Shown one piece after another: positions 2,614 to 9,276 of a DNA stretch of 9,276 bases (the stretch's first letter is position 1; each line of letters opens with the position of its first letter). This DNA is from an uncultured Arenimonas sp. GTDB lineage: Bacteria > Pseudomonadota > Gammaproteobacteria > Xanthomonadales > Xanthomonadaceae. The notes beneath the pieces are model-generated. The model saw only the letters and a program-made list of their open reading frames with translations, made no database searches and was not told the origin of the DNA. The stretch covers positions 1-9,276 of the forward strand of contig CAMLKR010000084.1 of NCBI GenBank assembly GCA_946480565.1, in the 5' to 3' direction. The position numbers and the translations under genes were made by a program.

Positions 2614-3345
2614 ATGTCCAGATCCTGGCTTGCGGCTTTGCTCACCCTGGGCCTGATGCTGGCGGCTCCCGCCGCGCCGGCCCAGGTCTCGCCCCGCTCC
2701 TATGCCCCCGAGGACCTGCGCCAGCTCTCGGTGCCGGACCGGATCCGGGTGCTCGAGGTCGAATACCGGGAAATTTCCGGCGGCCGCCCGCTGCCGCGCG
2801 ACCAGCGCGACTTCTACCTGGCCCAGATCGACTCGGGCTGGACCTTCAGCCGCATCAAGGCGGACATGGCGCAGTCCCTGGGCGGCAACCGCCCCGGCGG
2901 CGGCTGGGACGACGGCAACGCCTGGGGCGGCGGCAAGATCCGCTGCGACAGCAACGACCGCAAGTACCAGCAGTGCCCCACCAATTTCCGCGGCCGGGCC
3001 CGCGTATCGCGGCAGTTCTCCCGCGCCTCCTGCATCGAAGGCCGGCAGTGGGGCCAGCGCCCGGGCCTGATCTGGGTGAAGGACGGCTGCCGGGCCGAGT
3101 TCGTGGACACCGGCGGCAGCTGGGGCGGCGACTGGAACCGGCCGCCGCCGAACGACTACAGCGTCACCTGCAGCAGCGTGCACCAGGCCTACACCACCTG
3201 CGCCTGGAACAGCCGCTACGGCCGGCCGGTGCTGATCCAGCAGCTTTCCCGGGGCAATTGCATCGAGAACCGCACCTGGGGCTACCGCGGCAACCTGATC
3301 TGGGTGGACCGCGGCTGCCGGGCGCGTTTCGGCGTCCGTCGCTGA
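2614..3345 (+). CDS. Secreted protein with two DUF3011 repeats
   Basis: A 243-residue exported protein of unknown function. Residues 1-23 form a signal peptide: basic MSRSW, a Leu/Ala core, and cleavage probably after APA (21-23). Residues 28-90 form a charged, probably helical N-terminal region, followed by a Gly/Trp-rich linker. Two homologous units of about 55 residues follow, at 109-163 and 184-238, each with four cysteines at near-identical spacing (C111, C121, C140, C159; C186, C196, C215, C235). They share the pattern RxSCIExRxWGxRxGLIWVxxGCRAxF, which I recognise as DUF3011, a domain common in Xanthomonadaceae. Paired cysteines suggest disulfides in the periplasm or outside the cell. 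The ATG at 2614 was chosen because GAGGAG lies seven bases upstream and the signal peptide begins there. The frame is open further upstream but has no signal. Confidence 0.9.
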   Translation: MSRSWLAALLTLGLMLAAPAAPAQVSPRSYAPEDLRQLSVPDRIRVLEVEYREISGGRPLPRDQRDFYLAQIDSGWTFSRIKADMAQSLGGNRPGGGWDDGNAWGGGKIRCDSNDRKYQQCPTNFRGRARVSRQFSRASCIEGRQWGQRPGLIWVKDGCRAEFVDTGGSWGGDWNRPPPNDYSVTCSSVHQAYTTCAWNSRYGRPVLIQQLSRGNCIENRTWGYRGNLIWVDRGCRARFGVRR

Positions 3346-3412: not shown

Positions 3413-4102
3413 CTAAGGCTTGGCCGCTTCGCGGCCCCAGGCCGGCGGCGGCAGCGGCACCGGCCGGCCGAGGTCGAACTCGACCTGGAACAGGCGGCCG
3501 CCCGGCCGCGAAAGCTCGTAGAGGAAACGTTTCCCGGGCTCGATTTCCATCGCCCAGGTGTTGGTGACCGAGGCCGTCAGGCCCTCTCGCCCGAACATCG
3601 CCACCGACTCGGCGTCCACCGGAAAGGCCTGGCGGACCCGCGTGCCGGCATCGGCGGTGTCGCCGCCGTACATCGTCACCGCATCGGCGCTGCCATCGGC
3701 GTGGCGATGGTCGTGCTTCAGGCGCAGGCCGGTCGCCGTGCGGGTCAGCACCCAGGTGCGGGAGCGGTCGTCGCCGACGTGGAAGGGGATGCGGACCTGG
3801 TCGGCGCCGCAGTCGCGCACGTGCATCACCAGGGCCTTGCCGGCGAACGGATTGTCGGCGCTGGCCGGCTCGTCCACCACCACCCGGCCGGCGAAGGCCT
3901 GGCCACAGTGGCGAGACAAGGCCGCGAGGAAGGCGTCGGCGGGCGCCGGTGGATTGCCGGCGTCGTCCAGGCCGGGCGGTGGCAGCGGCTCGGCCAGGCC
4001 GGGGATGGTCGCGGGGGAAGACGAGGCCGGCGGCGCGCCGGCGCAGGCCGACAGCCCCAGGGCGATGACAAGCAGGATCGCGCGGAACGGGTGGGTTTGC
4101 AT
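3413..4102 (-). CDS. Lipoprotein of unknown function
   Basis: A 229-residue predicted lipoprotein. The signal peptide (Arg7, hydrophobic 8-18) ends in the lipobox L17-S-A-C20. Ala at +2 gives no inner-membrane retention signal, so the outer membrane is the likely destination. A Pro/Ala-rich tether (21-56) precedes a compact domain (about 57-215). This contains two further cysteines (C66, C98) that could form a disulfide, the stretch IPFHVGDDRSRTWVLTRT, a small histidine cluster (H130, H132, H134, in LKHDHRHADG) and a C-terminal LFQVEFDLGRP strand. I do not recognise a named family. Homologous hypothetical proteins probably occur in relatives, and the histidines and Asp residues do not form a motif I can assign. 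It starts 41 bp after fmdB on the same strand, probably in one transcript that ends at the hairpin at 3367-3392. The ATG has only an imperfect GGTAGGG-like ribosome site. Confidence 0.8.
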   Translation of the reverse strand: MQTHPFRAILLVIALGLSACAGAPPASSSPATIPGLAEPLPPPGLDDAGNPPAPADAFLAALSRHCGQAFAGRVVVDEPASADNPFAGKALVMHVRDCGADQVRIPFHVGDDRSRTWVLTRTATGLRLKHDHRHADGSADAVTMYGGDTADAGTRVRQAFPVDAESVAMFGREGLTASVTNTWAMEIEPGKRFLYELSRPGGRLFQVEFDLGRPVPLPPPAWGREAAKP

Positions 4103-4510: not shown

Positions 4511-4576
4511 GCCCGGAGTCCGGCGCGGTGGCCGGCAAGTGACTGAATTTAGGTGGATTTTTCAATAAGATCAATG

Positions 4577-4585
4577 TGTTACAAT
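4577..4585 (+). promoter_or_regulatory. Extended -10 promoter of the MFS-ggpPS operon
   Basis: TGTTACAAT (4577-4585) is an extended -10 element, TGn directly followed by TACAAT. Transcription would start near 4592 and give a leader of about 20 bases. No good -35 hexamer lies at 16-18 bp; the T-rich run at 4558-4562 is the nearest candidate. The surrounding 4541-4600 is conspicuously AT-rich for this genome. The S. rhizophila ggpPS gene is salt-induced, so this region is where a salt-responsive control would be expected, but I recognise no specific operator. Confidence 0.55.
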
Positions 4586-4613: not shown

Positions 4614-5861
4614 ATGATCGCCGTGGTGCTGCCCCTGACCGCCCTGCTGGCGGGCGTGGCGCTGCTCCTCGCGGGCAGCGGCCTCCTGGGAACCCTGCTG
4701 GCCGTGCGCGGCGGGCTGGAGGGGTTCGACGAACAGACCCTGGGCCTGGTGATGTCCGGGTATTTCGCCGGGTTCTTCCTGGGCACCTATGCCGCGCCGC
4801 CGCTGATCCGCCGGATCGGCCACATCCGGGCGTTCGCCTTCTGCACGGGTCTTTGCGCCATTGCGGTGCTGCTGCATCCGCTGTGGGTGGATCCCTGGGC
4901 CTGGTTCTTCCTGCGCCTGGTCACCGGGGTGGGCCTGGTAGGGCTGTACACCGTGATCGAAAGCTGGCTCAACGCCCAGCCCGAGCGCGAACACCGCAGC
5001 CGCATCTTCGCGGTCTACATGGCGGTGAACCTGACGGCGCTGGCCGGCGGCCAGCTGCTGCTGGGCCTGGGCGTGGACCGGGGCTTCGCGCTGTTCAGCC
5101 TGGTCGCGATCCTGATCTGCGCGGCGGCGCTGCCGGTGACGCTGACCCGGTTGGCGCAGCCGAGTTTTCCGCCGACACCCCGGCTGGGCCTGGTGCGGCT
5201 GTACCGCACGGCTCCGGCCGCCGCGGCCAGCGCCGGGCTGTCCGGATTGGCGATGGGCGCGTTCTGGGGCCTGGCCCCGATCTATGCCGGACAACTTGGC
5301 CTGGACCGCAGCGGCATCGCCTGGTTCATGGTCGCCACCATCATGGGCGGCGCCCTGCTGCAGTGGCCGCTGGGCCGGCTGTCGGACCGGGTGGACCGGC
5401 GCATCGGGCTCGCCTTGGCCTGCGGGCTCGCGGGCGCGGTGGCGCTGGCCGCCGGTTCGGTCACGACCTGGTCGCCGCCGCTGCTGTTCGCGGCGTTTTT
5501 CGTCTACGGCGGCCTGGCGTTTTCGATCTATCCGATGAGCGTCGCGCACATGCTCGACACCCTGCCCACCGAGGACCTGCTGGCGGGCTGCAGCAGCCTG
5601 CTGCTGGTGCACGGCATCGGCGCGATGCTGGGCCCGGCGGTGGCGGGCCAGGCCATGAGCCGGTTCGGACCGCCGGCCCTGCCGCTCTATTTCGCCGCCG
5701 TGCTGGGCCTGTTGACGCTCTACCTGCTGCTGCGGCTGTCGGCGCACCGACGCGTCCGGCCGCATCCGGCCCAGTTCCACCCGATGCTGCGCACCACGCC
5801 GGGCGCGCTCGAGCTGCTGCCGGAAACCGGATCCGACCCACCCCGCAAGGAAGACCCTTGA
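4614..5861 (+). CDS. MFS transporter, YcaD-like, linked to glucosylglycerol synthesis
   Basis: A 415-residue inner-membrane carrier of the major facilitator superfamily with about twelve hydrophobic segments from residue 2 to 375 and a hydrophilic tail of 40 residues (376-415). Family marks include the loop 2-3 segment PLIRRIGHIRAF (63-74), the ESWLN segment after TM4 (116-120), YMAVNLTALAGGQLLLGL (135-152) and the loop 8-9 motif QWPLGRLSDRVDRR (250-263). These align with E. coli YcaD, itself without a firm substrate. The gene is the first of a coupled pair with ggpPS (stop TGA overlaps the next start). MFS genes are often linked to ggpPS in relatives, so transport or release of glucosylglycerol is a plausible inference, not shown. 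The ATG at 4614 is chosen because AGGA lies six bases upstream and TM1 begins immediately. Confidence 0.9.
   Translation: MIAVVLPLTALLAGVALLLAGSGLLGTLLAVRGGLEGFDEQTLGLVMSGYFAGFFLGTYAAPPLIRRIGHIRAFAFCTGLCAIAVLLHPLWVDPWAWFFLRLVTGVGLVGLYTVIESWLNAQPEREHRSRIFAVYMAVNLTALAGGQLLLGLGVDRGFALFSLVAILICAAALPVTLTRLAQPSFPPTPRLGLVRLYRTAPAAAASAGLSGLAMGAFWGLAPIYAGQLGLDRSGIAWFMVATIMGGALLQWPLGRLSDRVDRRIGLALACGLAGAVALAAGSVTTWSPPLLFAAFFVYGGLAFSIYPMSVAHMLDTLPTEDLLAGCSSLLLVHGIGAMLGPAVAGQAMSRFGPPALPLYFAAVLGLLTLYLLLRLSAHRRVRPHPAQFHPMLRTTPGALELLPETGSDPPRKEDP
5847..5860 (+). promoter_or_regulatory. Ribosome-binding site and TTG start that set the ggpPS N-terminus
   Basis: AAGGAAG begins at 5847, and its AAGGA core ends six bases before TTG at 5858-5860. 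The TTG overlaps the TGA of the MFS gene (5859-5861) as TTGA, a typical translational-coupling arrangement. The first in-frame ATG is at 6044 (codon 63), beyond the phosphatase nucleophile motif D23-x-D25-G-T, so an ATG-only start would remove the catalytic aspartate. Confidence 0.88.
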
Positions 5862-8149
5862 GCACCCAGAAAACAACGCTTCCCGTTGAACACGAAGACA
5901 CTCCCCGCCTGATCCTGGCCACCGACCTGGACGGCACCTTCCTGGCAGGCGACCCGCTGGCGCGCCAGCGCCTCTACCGCCTGGTGGACGAACACCCGCA
6001 GATCCGCCTGGCCTGGATCACCGGCCGCGGCCTGGAAGCGGTGATGCCCCTGCTGTCCGACCCCGCCCTGCCGCGACCGGACTATCTGATCTGCGACGTC
6101 GGCGCGACCGTCGTCGACGGCCGCAGCCTGCAGCCGCTGCAGCCCCTGCAGTCGACGATCGACGCCCGCTGGCCCGGCGAGCGCCCGGTCGCCGAAGCCA
6201 TGCGCGGGTTCCCCGCGCTCCTGCGCCAGGACGTGCCGCAGGAACGCCGTTGTTCCTACTTCTGCGAACCCGGGGCGCTGGAACCGCAGCGCGCCGGCAT
6301 CGAGCAGGCCGCCCGCGACCTCGGGTGCTCGGTGCTCTACTCGGCCGACCGCTACCTCGACATCCTGCCGCCGCGCACCGACAAGGGCCGCACGCTTTCC
6401 GAGCTGGCGGCCCAGCTGCGACTGCCGCGCGACCGCATACTCGTGGCGGGCGACACCCTTAACGACCTGTCCATGTACGAAGCCGGCTTCCGCGGCGTCT
6501 GCGTCGGGCACTCCGAACCGGCCCTGCTGGCGGCGACGGAACGGTTCGAGCACGTGCTGCACGCCGAAGCCCCTGGCTGCGGCGGCATCCTCGAGGCGAT
6601 CGAGCACTTCGGCCTGCTCGCCGGCGACGATCCGATGCGCCCGGCCGCCGCCGGCATGGCGCACGGCCAGGCGGGCCTGGTGATGGTCTACCACCGACTG
6701 CCGTACGAGGAGGCCGTCGAGGACGGCGTGCGTGTGCGCCGGCGCCCGCGCTCGCCCAACGGCATCATTCCCAGCCTGCTCAGTTTCTTCGGCAAGGGCC
6801 AGGCCGGCTCCTGGGTGGCCTGGAGCATCGACGACGGCAAGCAGGGCGCCTTCGAAACCCGCACGTCGGTGGACGCCGACGCCTACCCGCAGCTCACCGC
6901 CGTGCGTGTGCCGCTGGGAAAGGCCGAGGTCGACGCGTTCTACAAGCGCTTTTCGAAAGAGGCCTTCTGGCCGATGTTGCACACCTTCTGGGAGCGCGCG
7001 CGCTTCCGCGAGGAGGACTGGAAGATCTTCCTGCGGGTGAACCGGCGCTTCGCCGAAGCCGCCGCCGCCGAGGCCGCACCCGGCGCCACCGTCTGGCTGC
7101 ACGACTACAACCTGTGGATGGTGCCCGGCCGACTGCGCGAGCTGCGCCCGGACGTCAAGATCGCCTTCTTCCACCACACCTATTTCCCTTCCGCCGACAT
7201 CTTCAACGTCGTGCCCTGGCGGCGCGAGATCCTGGGCAGCCTGCTCAGCTGCGACTACATCGGCTTCCATATCCCGCGCCAGGTCGAGAACTTCGTCGAC
7301 GTCGTGCGCGGCGCGATGCCGGCCGAGGTGCTGGCGCGCGAATCCTGCGCGCCGCGCTTCCTGACCTACGGCTGCGCAGTGGGGCTGGACGCCATGACCA
7401 CGCGCCTGCGCATCCACGGCCGCGAGATCGGCCTGGGCGCGCATCCGGTCGGCACCGACCTGGGCCGCGTGCGTTCGGTGCTGGCCCAGCCCGCGGTGCG
7501 CAAGAGCCTGGAGAAACTGCGGCGCGAGATCAGCCCGCGCAAGCTGGTGCTTTCGATCGAGCGCCTGGACTACACCAAGGGCACGCTGGAGAAGCTCGAG
7601 GCCTTCGACCGGCTGCTCGAGGCGCAGCCGCAGCTGCAGGGCAAGGTCACCCTGGTGGTGATCTGCGTGCCGGCGGCGAAGGAGATGACCGTCTACCGCC
7701 AGCTGCAGACCCAGATCGAACAGGCCGTCGGCCGCATCAACGGCCGGCATTCACGCCTGGACTGGACGCCGGTGCGCTTCTTCGCCCGGCCGCTGCCTTT
7801 CGAGGAGGTGGTCGCGCACTACGCGGCGGCCGACGTCATGTGGATCACGCCGCTGCGCGACGGCCTGAACCTGGTGGCCAAGGAATTCGTCGCCACCCAG
7901 GGCATCGAAGGCGGACGCGGCGTGCTGGTGCTGTCGGAGTTCGCCGGCGCCGCGGCCGAACTCAAGGGCGCGCTGCTGACCAACCCGCACGACCCGGCCG
8001 ACCTGAGCGCGGCGCTGGCGCAGGCGCTGGCCATGCATCCGGACGAGGCGGAGGGCCGGCTGCGGCAGCTCTACGGCATCGTCGAGGAGTACGACGTGGA
8101 CCGCTGGGGCCGCGACTTCCTGGCGGCCGTGGCAGCCTCGCCGGGCTGA
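5858..8149 (+). CDS. ggpPS: Bifunctional glucosylglycerol-phosphate phosphatase/synthase (GgpPS)
   Basis: A 763-residue fusion that makes the compatible solute glucosylglycerol in the cytosol. The C-terminal half joins ADP-glucose and glycerol 3-phosphate to glucosylglycerol phosphate, and the N-terminal half removes the phosphate. Residues 17-255 are a HAD phosphatase of the sucrose-phosphatase type: D23-L-D25-G-T, T55-G-R, K176 and G198-D199-TLN-D203. Residues 272-760 are a GT20 glucosyltransferase with SPNGIIPSLLSFF, HDYNLW (H415), FFHHTYFPSADIFN (H439), RLDYTKGT (R569, K574) and PLRDGLNLVAKEF (D668, E676), the positions of donor-binding residues in OtsA. Wording across this half follows cyanobacterial GgpS closely and OtsA only distantly, so trehalose synthesis is the less likely reading. 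The architecture equals GgpPS of Stenotrophomonas rhizophila, which is salt-induced. It is coupled to the upstream MFS gene. Confidence 0.93.
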   Translation: MSTQKTTLPVEHEDTPRLILATDLDGTFLAGDPLARQRLYRLVDEHPQIRLAWITGRGLEAVMPLLSDPALPRPDYLICDVGATVVDGRSLQPLQPLQSTIDARWPGERPVAEAMRGFPALLRQDVPQERRCSYFCEPGALEPQRAGIEQAARDLGCSVLYSADRYLDILPPRTDKGRTLSELAAQLRLPRDRILVAGDTLNDLSMYEAGFRGVCVGHSEPALLAATERFEHVLHAEAPGCGGILEAIEHFGLLAGDDPMRPAAAGMAHGQAGLVMVYHRLPYEEAVEDGVRVRRRPRSPNGIIPSLLSFFGKGQAGSWVAWSIDDGKQGAFETRTSVDADAYPQLTAVRVPLGKAEVDAFYKRFSKEAFWPMLHTFWERARFREEDWKIFLRVNRRFAEAAAAEAAPGATVWLHDYNLWMVPGRLRELRPDVKIAFFHHTYFPSADIFNVVPWRREILGSLLSCDYIGFHIPRQVENFVDVVRGAMPAEVLARESCAPRFLTYGCAVGLDAMTTRLRIHGREIGLGAHPVGTDLGRVRSVLAQPAVRKSLEKLRREISPRKLVLSIERLDYTKGTLEKLEAFDRLLEAQPQLQGKVTLVVICVPAAKEMTVYRQLQTQIEQAVGRINGRHSRLDWTPVRFFARPLPFEEVVAHYAAADVMWITPLRDGLNLVAKEFVATQGIEGGRGVLVLSEFAGAAAELKGALLTNPHDPADLSAALAQALAMHPDEAEGRLRQLYGIVEEYDVDRWGRDFLAAVAASPG
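6128..6151 (+). repeat. In-gene tandem CTGCAG-N3 repeat in ggpPS
   Basis: CTGCAG occurs three times at a strict 9-base period (6128, 6137, 6146), giving LQPLQPLQ at residues 91-98 of GgpPS. It lies between the HAD core segment GATVVDG and the cap region, so it probably forms a flexible or short extended stretch. The repeat is short and in frame, and could change copy number without breaking the gene. Confidence 0.7.

Positions 8150-8163: not shown

Positions 8164-9276
<1,113 letters not shown>

Follow-up and report, generated by a model that had tools for sequence, protein, structure and literature searches.

Known systems and the Arenimonas locus

The described systems closest to the locus considered here include: (i) the ggpS-ycaD pair of Stenotrophomonas rhizophila DSM14405T (DX03_04600/DX03_04605; PMC4101175), a member of the Lysobacteraceae that likewise has a fused GgpP-GgpS and a neighboring major facilitator superfamily (MFS) gene, (ii) the ggpPS-ggp pair of Marinobacter (PMC10873239), (iii) the GgpS and GgpP of cyanobacteria, and (iv) OtsA and related trehalose-phosphate synthases (TPS), which share the GT20 family and a set of residues but differ in acceptor-side residues and family scores. 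The DNA analyzed, termed the window, is the whole of a 9,276-nt stretch from an uncultured Arenimonas sp. (contig CAMLKR010000084.1). It carries an MFS carrier gene followed by ggpPS, which encodes a fused glucosylglycerol-phosphate phosphatase/synthase (Table 1). A first-pass annotation, made from the sequence alone, had recognized two overlapping genes of this kind, and the reading frames indeed overlap by 4 nt. The locus suggests that Arenimonas synthesizes glucosylglycerol. The two genes very probably form a glucosylglycerol salt-response operon of an Arenimonas-type bacterium, a judgement that covers the enzyme and the operon; the direction of the carrier is weighed separately below. The pairing of a fused ggpPS with an MFS gene is already known from relatives, and the enzymology is ordinary by family. 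The carrier question is made testable by the comparison, as loci with the pair, ggpPS genomes without a close carrier and one genome with a phosphorylase-linked carrier are now listed.

The fusion attributed to S. rhizophila by the first-pass annotation is described for that species (PMC10873239), and the linkage to an MFS gene corresponds to the published neighbor ycaD (PMC4101175). In four S. rhizophila strains other than the type strain (L009, L011, L022 and L027), identity to the window is 77-79% and the two genes are separated by gaps of 30-45 nt, whereas those of the window overlap. The GgpPS of Marinobacter (locus L066) has the domain order of the window protein (PMC10873239); its neighbor, by contrast, is a phosphorylase-type gene, and the MFS relatives in that genome reach only 34-37% identity. 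Cyanobacterial GgpS and GgpP are alike in the two activities by family, and the synthase domains group together, but the activities reside on two proteins rather than one. This separation does not extend to all cyanobacteria, as had been supposed: Nostoc ellipsosporum NOK has a fused gene (PMC10873239).

Table 1. Features of the window (positions are those of the whole stretch).
Feature	Position	Strand	Remarks
DUF3011 protein	2614-3345	+	between aspS and the operon; homologs in many Lysobacteraceae loci
229-aa open reading frame, no family match	3413-4102	-	between aspS and the operon; homologs in many Lysobacteraceae loci
Promoter-like element ATCAATGTGTTACAAT	4570-4585	+	reads as extended -10; 44 nt before MFS start
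MFS carrier gene	4614-5861	+	415 aa; relative of PRK03633; MFS_1 (Pfam)
AAGGA, probable ribosome-binding site of ggpPS	5847-5851	+	6 nt before TTG
TTGA junction	5858-5861	+	ggpPS start TTG (5858-5860) overlaps MFS stop TGA (5859-5861)
ggpPS, fused glucosylglycerol-phosphate phosphatase/synthase	5858-8149	+	763 aa; TTG start; family models, Pfam, tree
Phosphatase domain (S6PP, HAD-IIB)	5906-6616	+	residues 17-253; Pfam; sucrose-6-phosphatase type
Synthase domain (GT20, GgpS type)	6680-8131	+	residues 275-758; Ala607 at OtsA Arg300 position
ABC-F gene	8164-9276	-	nearest model PRK10636, match begins at position 292 of 638; probably truncated at right window end

A GgpS-type synthase fused to a phosphatase

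The synthase half scores 733.9 bits against the curated GgpS equivalog model TIGR02398 (cut-off 569) and falls below the cut-offs of the OtsA models TIGR02400 (430.3 versus 564.85) and PRK10117 (247.8 versus 759). The clustering of residues 270-763 that the first-pass annotation had proposed as a check agrees with these models: a synthase tree of 38 rows separates the window and GgpS from OtsA with support of 100/100. The tree comprises the window plus ggpPS from 20 of 80 loci (21 ggpPS rows in all; the 80 were retained out of 443 relatives, and locus counts refer to them throughout), 10 of 120 listed proteins and 7 other rows, with labels from sources or family scores. Its GgpS side holds the window and the 20 other ggpPS loci, 7 unfused GgpS (one of which, P0151, is without a source name), 4 cyanobacterial GgpS, and two rows that carry no group label, L130 (over the GgpS cut-off) and a Kitasatospora fusion; the TPS side holds E. 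coli OtsA, a Deinococcus TPS and two TPS-like rows.

The motifs of the synthase follow GgpS rather than OtsA, as had been claimed. The position of OtsA Arg300 is occupied by Ala in the window, as in 32 of the 33 GgpS-type rows (Asn in the other one; the Kitasatospora row is left out of this count), and by Arg in all four TPS-like rows. In each of the 33 GgpS-type rows, OtsA Asn81 is replaced by Lys, His132 by Asn, and the residue before Arg9, an Asn in OtsA, by His. OtsA residues 9, 76, 85, 130, 154, 262, 267, 361 and 369 are also present in the GgpS-type alignment. From these residues, glycerol 3-phosphate is the predicted acceptor of the synthase half.

By Pfam, the protein has an N-terminal phosphatase and a C-terminal synthase in one chain, the architecture of a fused GgpPS. 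HAD motifs I-IV are intact in the phosphatase half (DLDGT at 23, TGR at 55, DKG at 175 and GDTLND at 198). Across the window and the 80 loci, simple patterns recover motif I in 80/81 proteins, motif III in 72/81 and the other two in all 81; the motifs missed may be variants or reflect limits of the patterns. The synthase half would join glucose from ADP- or UDP-glucose to glycerol 3-phosphate, and the phosphatase half fused to it would remove the phosphate to yield glucosylglycerol, a compatible solute. The MFS gene in front, presumably translated in step via the TTGA overlap, would provide a carrier for glucosylglycerol. The host is predicted to make glucosylglycerol under salt.

Several other arrangements were encountered. 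A plasmid of Kitasatospora sp. NBC_00039 (L152:4941-7175) encodes an HAD-IIB and GT20 fusion that is 39% identical and annotated only as an HAD-IIB hydrolase. It forms a long branch in the tree, its score against the GgpS model (323.7 bits) is far under the cut-off, and it has GgpS-like residues except for Glu at the OtsA Arg300 position. Streptomyces plasmids also match this type of fusion, which possibly represents a separate actinobacterial family. On plasmid pDSHI02 of Dinoroseobacter shibae (L151:4868-8285), genes for a glycerol-3-phosphate dehydrogenase and an HAD phosphatase lie in a row with ggpS and may form an operon that provides the acceptor as well. In genome G105 (L139:4643-13749), an unfused phosphatase gene and ggpS overlap by 4 nt, and a phosphorylase homolog lies about 5 kb away, adjoining a sodium/solute symporter.

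Gene overlap, promoter-like element and regulation

The TTGA junction is kept in all six other Arenimonas-type loci compared, preceded by AAGGA in five and by AGGA in the sixth (L001). As the ggpPS frame is open further 5' (GTG at 4553) and a 793-aa A. terrae protein is on record, the TTG is a putative start.

Upstream of the MFS gene, ATCAATGTGTTACAAT lies within a block that is conserved in the alignment of the window with the six Arenimonas-type loci. The pattern ATCAAYRTGTTASAAT has nine exact matches in 1,545,274 bases (loci partly overlapping; one match is a duplicate locus), and all are 43-50 nt before an MFS start. Looser forms are found in several Luteimonas, Lysobacter and Pseudoxanthomonas loci, while Stenotrophomonas loci have none or a form with 5 mismatches, and the S. 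rhizophila loci have no exact form. A simple sigma-70 scan gave no match at the element. Judged by sequence, ATCAATGTGTTACAAT is most simply read as an extended -10 promoter. In S. rhizophila, ggpS and ycaD are salt-induced together (8.3x and 7.7x, respectively; PMC3653106), and salt control of the Arenimonas operon is proposed by analogy.

The MFS carrier and its association with ggpPS

The carrier had been called YcaD-like. It is a relative of NCBIfam PRK03633 (YcaD), but not a member by that model (153.2 bits, cut-off 361). Its predicted structure is an all-helical MFS-type fold (mean pLDDT 87.3) that matches importers and exporters alike.

The MFS gene adjoins ggpPS in 55/80 loci (53 upstream in the same orientation and 2 downstream and convergent) and does not in 25, with L053 judged on only about 0.5 kb of upstream sequence. 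Adjacency this frequent among related loci is not due to chance. Genome-wide, an MFS copy of at least 41% identity is present in 65/80 ggpPS genomes, in 10 of these away from ggpPS; a 66th genome has MFS relatives of only 34-37%. Among the neighbors examined, the unlinked copies have no constant partner, except for three Pseudoxanthomonas loci that share theirs.

An 85-row MFS tree (midpoint root; SH-aLRT 98) divides into a side of 61 rows (51 beside ggpPS, 6 more that come from ggpPS genomes, one from a genome with GgpS and 3 others) and a side of 24 rows, of which one has GgpS and 23 do not. Six rows that were partial or had an internal stop were dropped (L013, L025, L037, L038, L050 and L110), and duplicates (L097, L099 and L129), weaker second copies, 4 of 34 matches without a locus and the unlinked copies from 4 of the 10 ggpPS genomes whose MFS lies elsewhere were omitted. 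The 34 matches are those of 369 Gammaproteobacteria genomes that carry a close MFS at E values up to 1e-75; three of them have GgpS over the cut-off and one has a phosphorylase homolog. GgpS over the cut-off is found in 4/369 genomes, and the association with the MFS is positive (3/4 versus 31/365, p = 0.0027; 2/3 without the center genome, p = 0.022; neither corrected for kinship). The link of the MFS to ggpPS is strong; yet the carrier is dispensable for synthesis, as the genomes that lack it (see below) indicate.

Direction of the carrier and competing readings

The first choice for the carrier, ahead of export and with roughly an even chance of being right, is the recapture of leaked or external glucosylglycerol. 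The fuller form of this proposal, in which a recapture and salvage carrier rather than an exporter accompanies the synthase in bacteria that retain the solute (Lysobacteraceae, Zoogloeaceae and Pseudomonas) and can accompany the phosphorylase in those that consume it (Dechloromonas G017), is more tentative and falls somewhat short of even. In Dechloromonas G017 (locus L061), the MFS gene lies directly downstream of a phosphorylase homolog and ggpPS is elsewhere in the genome, a pairing that leans to uptake. This homolog, of a type found in 15/80 ggpPS genomes, is 66-67% identical to that of Marinobacter. The Marinobacter homolog scored as a sucrose phosphorylase by NCBIfam, and such phosphorylase genes were annotated as sucrose phosphorylases (PMC10873239); it is considered a putative glucosylglycerol phosphorylase from its place beside ggpPS and from that paper.

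A number of observations weigh against the overall reading of the operon and its carrier. Of 12 phosphorylase loci with short flanks, just one has an MFS gene alongside, and none is present at a 13th (L134). No close carrier was found in 15/80 ggpPS genomes, and P. kalamensis (L007), whose ggpPS lies at the aspS locus, gave no MFS match genome-wide; it is these genomes that make the carrier dispensable. Of the 34 carrier-bearing genomes in the Gammaproteobacteria sample, 31 have no GgpS over the cut-off; thus, the carrier family is not dedicated to glucosylglycerol and also has other substrates. Stationary S. rhizophila is reported to excrete glucosylglycerol, which favors export (PMC4390839), and the comparison draws on the 80 retained loci of the 443 relatives. 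On balance, the comparisons slightly favor recapture.

An exporter that releases glucosylglycerol in the stationary phase or after a shift back to low salt is possible, if less probable than recapture. Besides the excretion, ycaD has been proposed as an export candidate (PMC4390839, PMC6753628). The 45 Lysobacteraceae genomes among the 80 all lack a phosphorylase homolog at E up to 1e-60, and because of this an imported solute would have no known breakdown route there. Production of an exporter together with the synthase in salt would, however, work against accumulation, and the phosphorylase-MFS pair of G017 fits uptake better. The first-pass annotation regarded the role of the carrier as unsettled, in line with a 2019 review that calls it uncharacterized, with characterization pending (PMC6753628); no later test was recognized among the literature matches listed. 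The same review suggests that an exporter could aid the production of glucosylglycerol in cyanobacteria (PMC6753628). Were the carrier to import, that plan would fail with this protein. If recapture is correct, the carrier would also be, to our knowledge, the first MFS-type importer of glucosylglycerol.

It is unlikely that the MFS carries another, unrelated substrate and that the link to ggpPS is a neighbor effect. The wider family is mostly in genomes without GgpS over the cut-off, unlinked copies outside Pseudoxanthomonas have no constant partner, and the general MFS fold leaves importers and exporters tied, all of which would suit such a substrate. Against it stand the adjacency across several families, the gene overlap in Arenimonas, the fact that ggpPS or GgpS genomes supply 58/61 rows on the larger side of the MFS tree and the co-induction in S. 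rhizophila (PMC3653106). Least probable by far is a bifunctional trehalose-phosphate synthase/phosphatase: GT20 membership and the best sequence match among solved structures, a TPS (5jij, 312.6 bits), speak for it, but the synthase is over the GgpS cut-off and below those of OtsA and OtsA-OtsB, stands apart from OtsA in the tree and has lost the Arg300 position, the phosphatase is of the S6PP type, and NF011071, the sole model with a trehalose-phosphatase part, matched residues 273-758 only, which correspond to its synthase part.

Host relatives and neighboring genes

The host is an Arenimonas relative by sequence. In the best segment, the ggpPS protein is 91% identical to that of A. terrae and 93% to that of A. 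daejeonensis, and two long DNA matches to A. terrae are 87.5% and 92.7% identical. The window and these Arenimonas loci have in common aspS and further genes upstream and the ABC-F gene downstream. In A. daejeonensis KACC 14631 (L037), the MFS and ggpPS matches are each in two pieces, from gene decay or assembly errors. A record titled Bacillus subtilis SK7B5 (L029) includes a contig with a Stenotrophomonas-type aspS-MFS-ggpPS locus, which reflects contamination or a wrong label.

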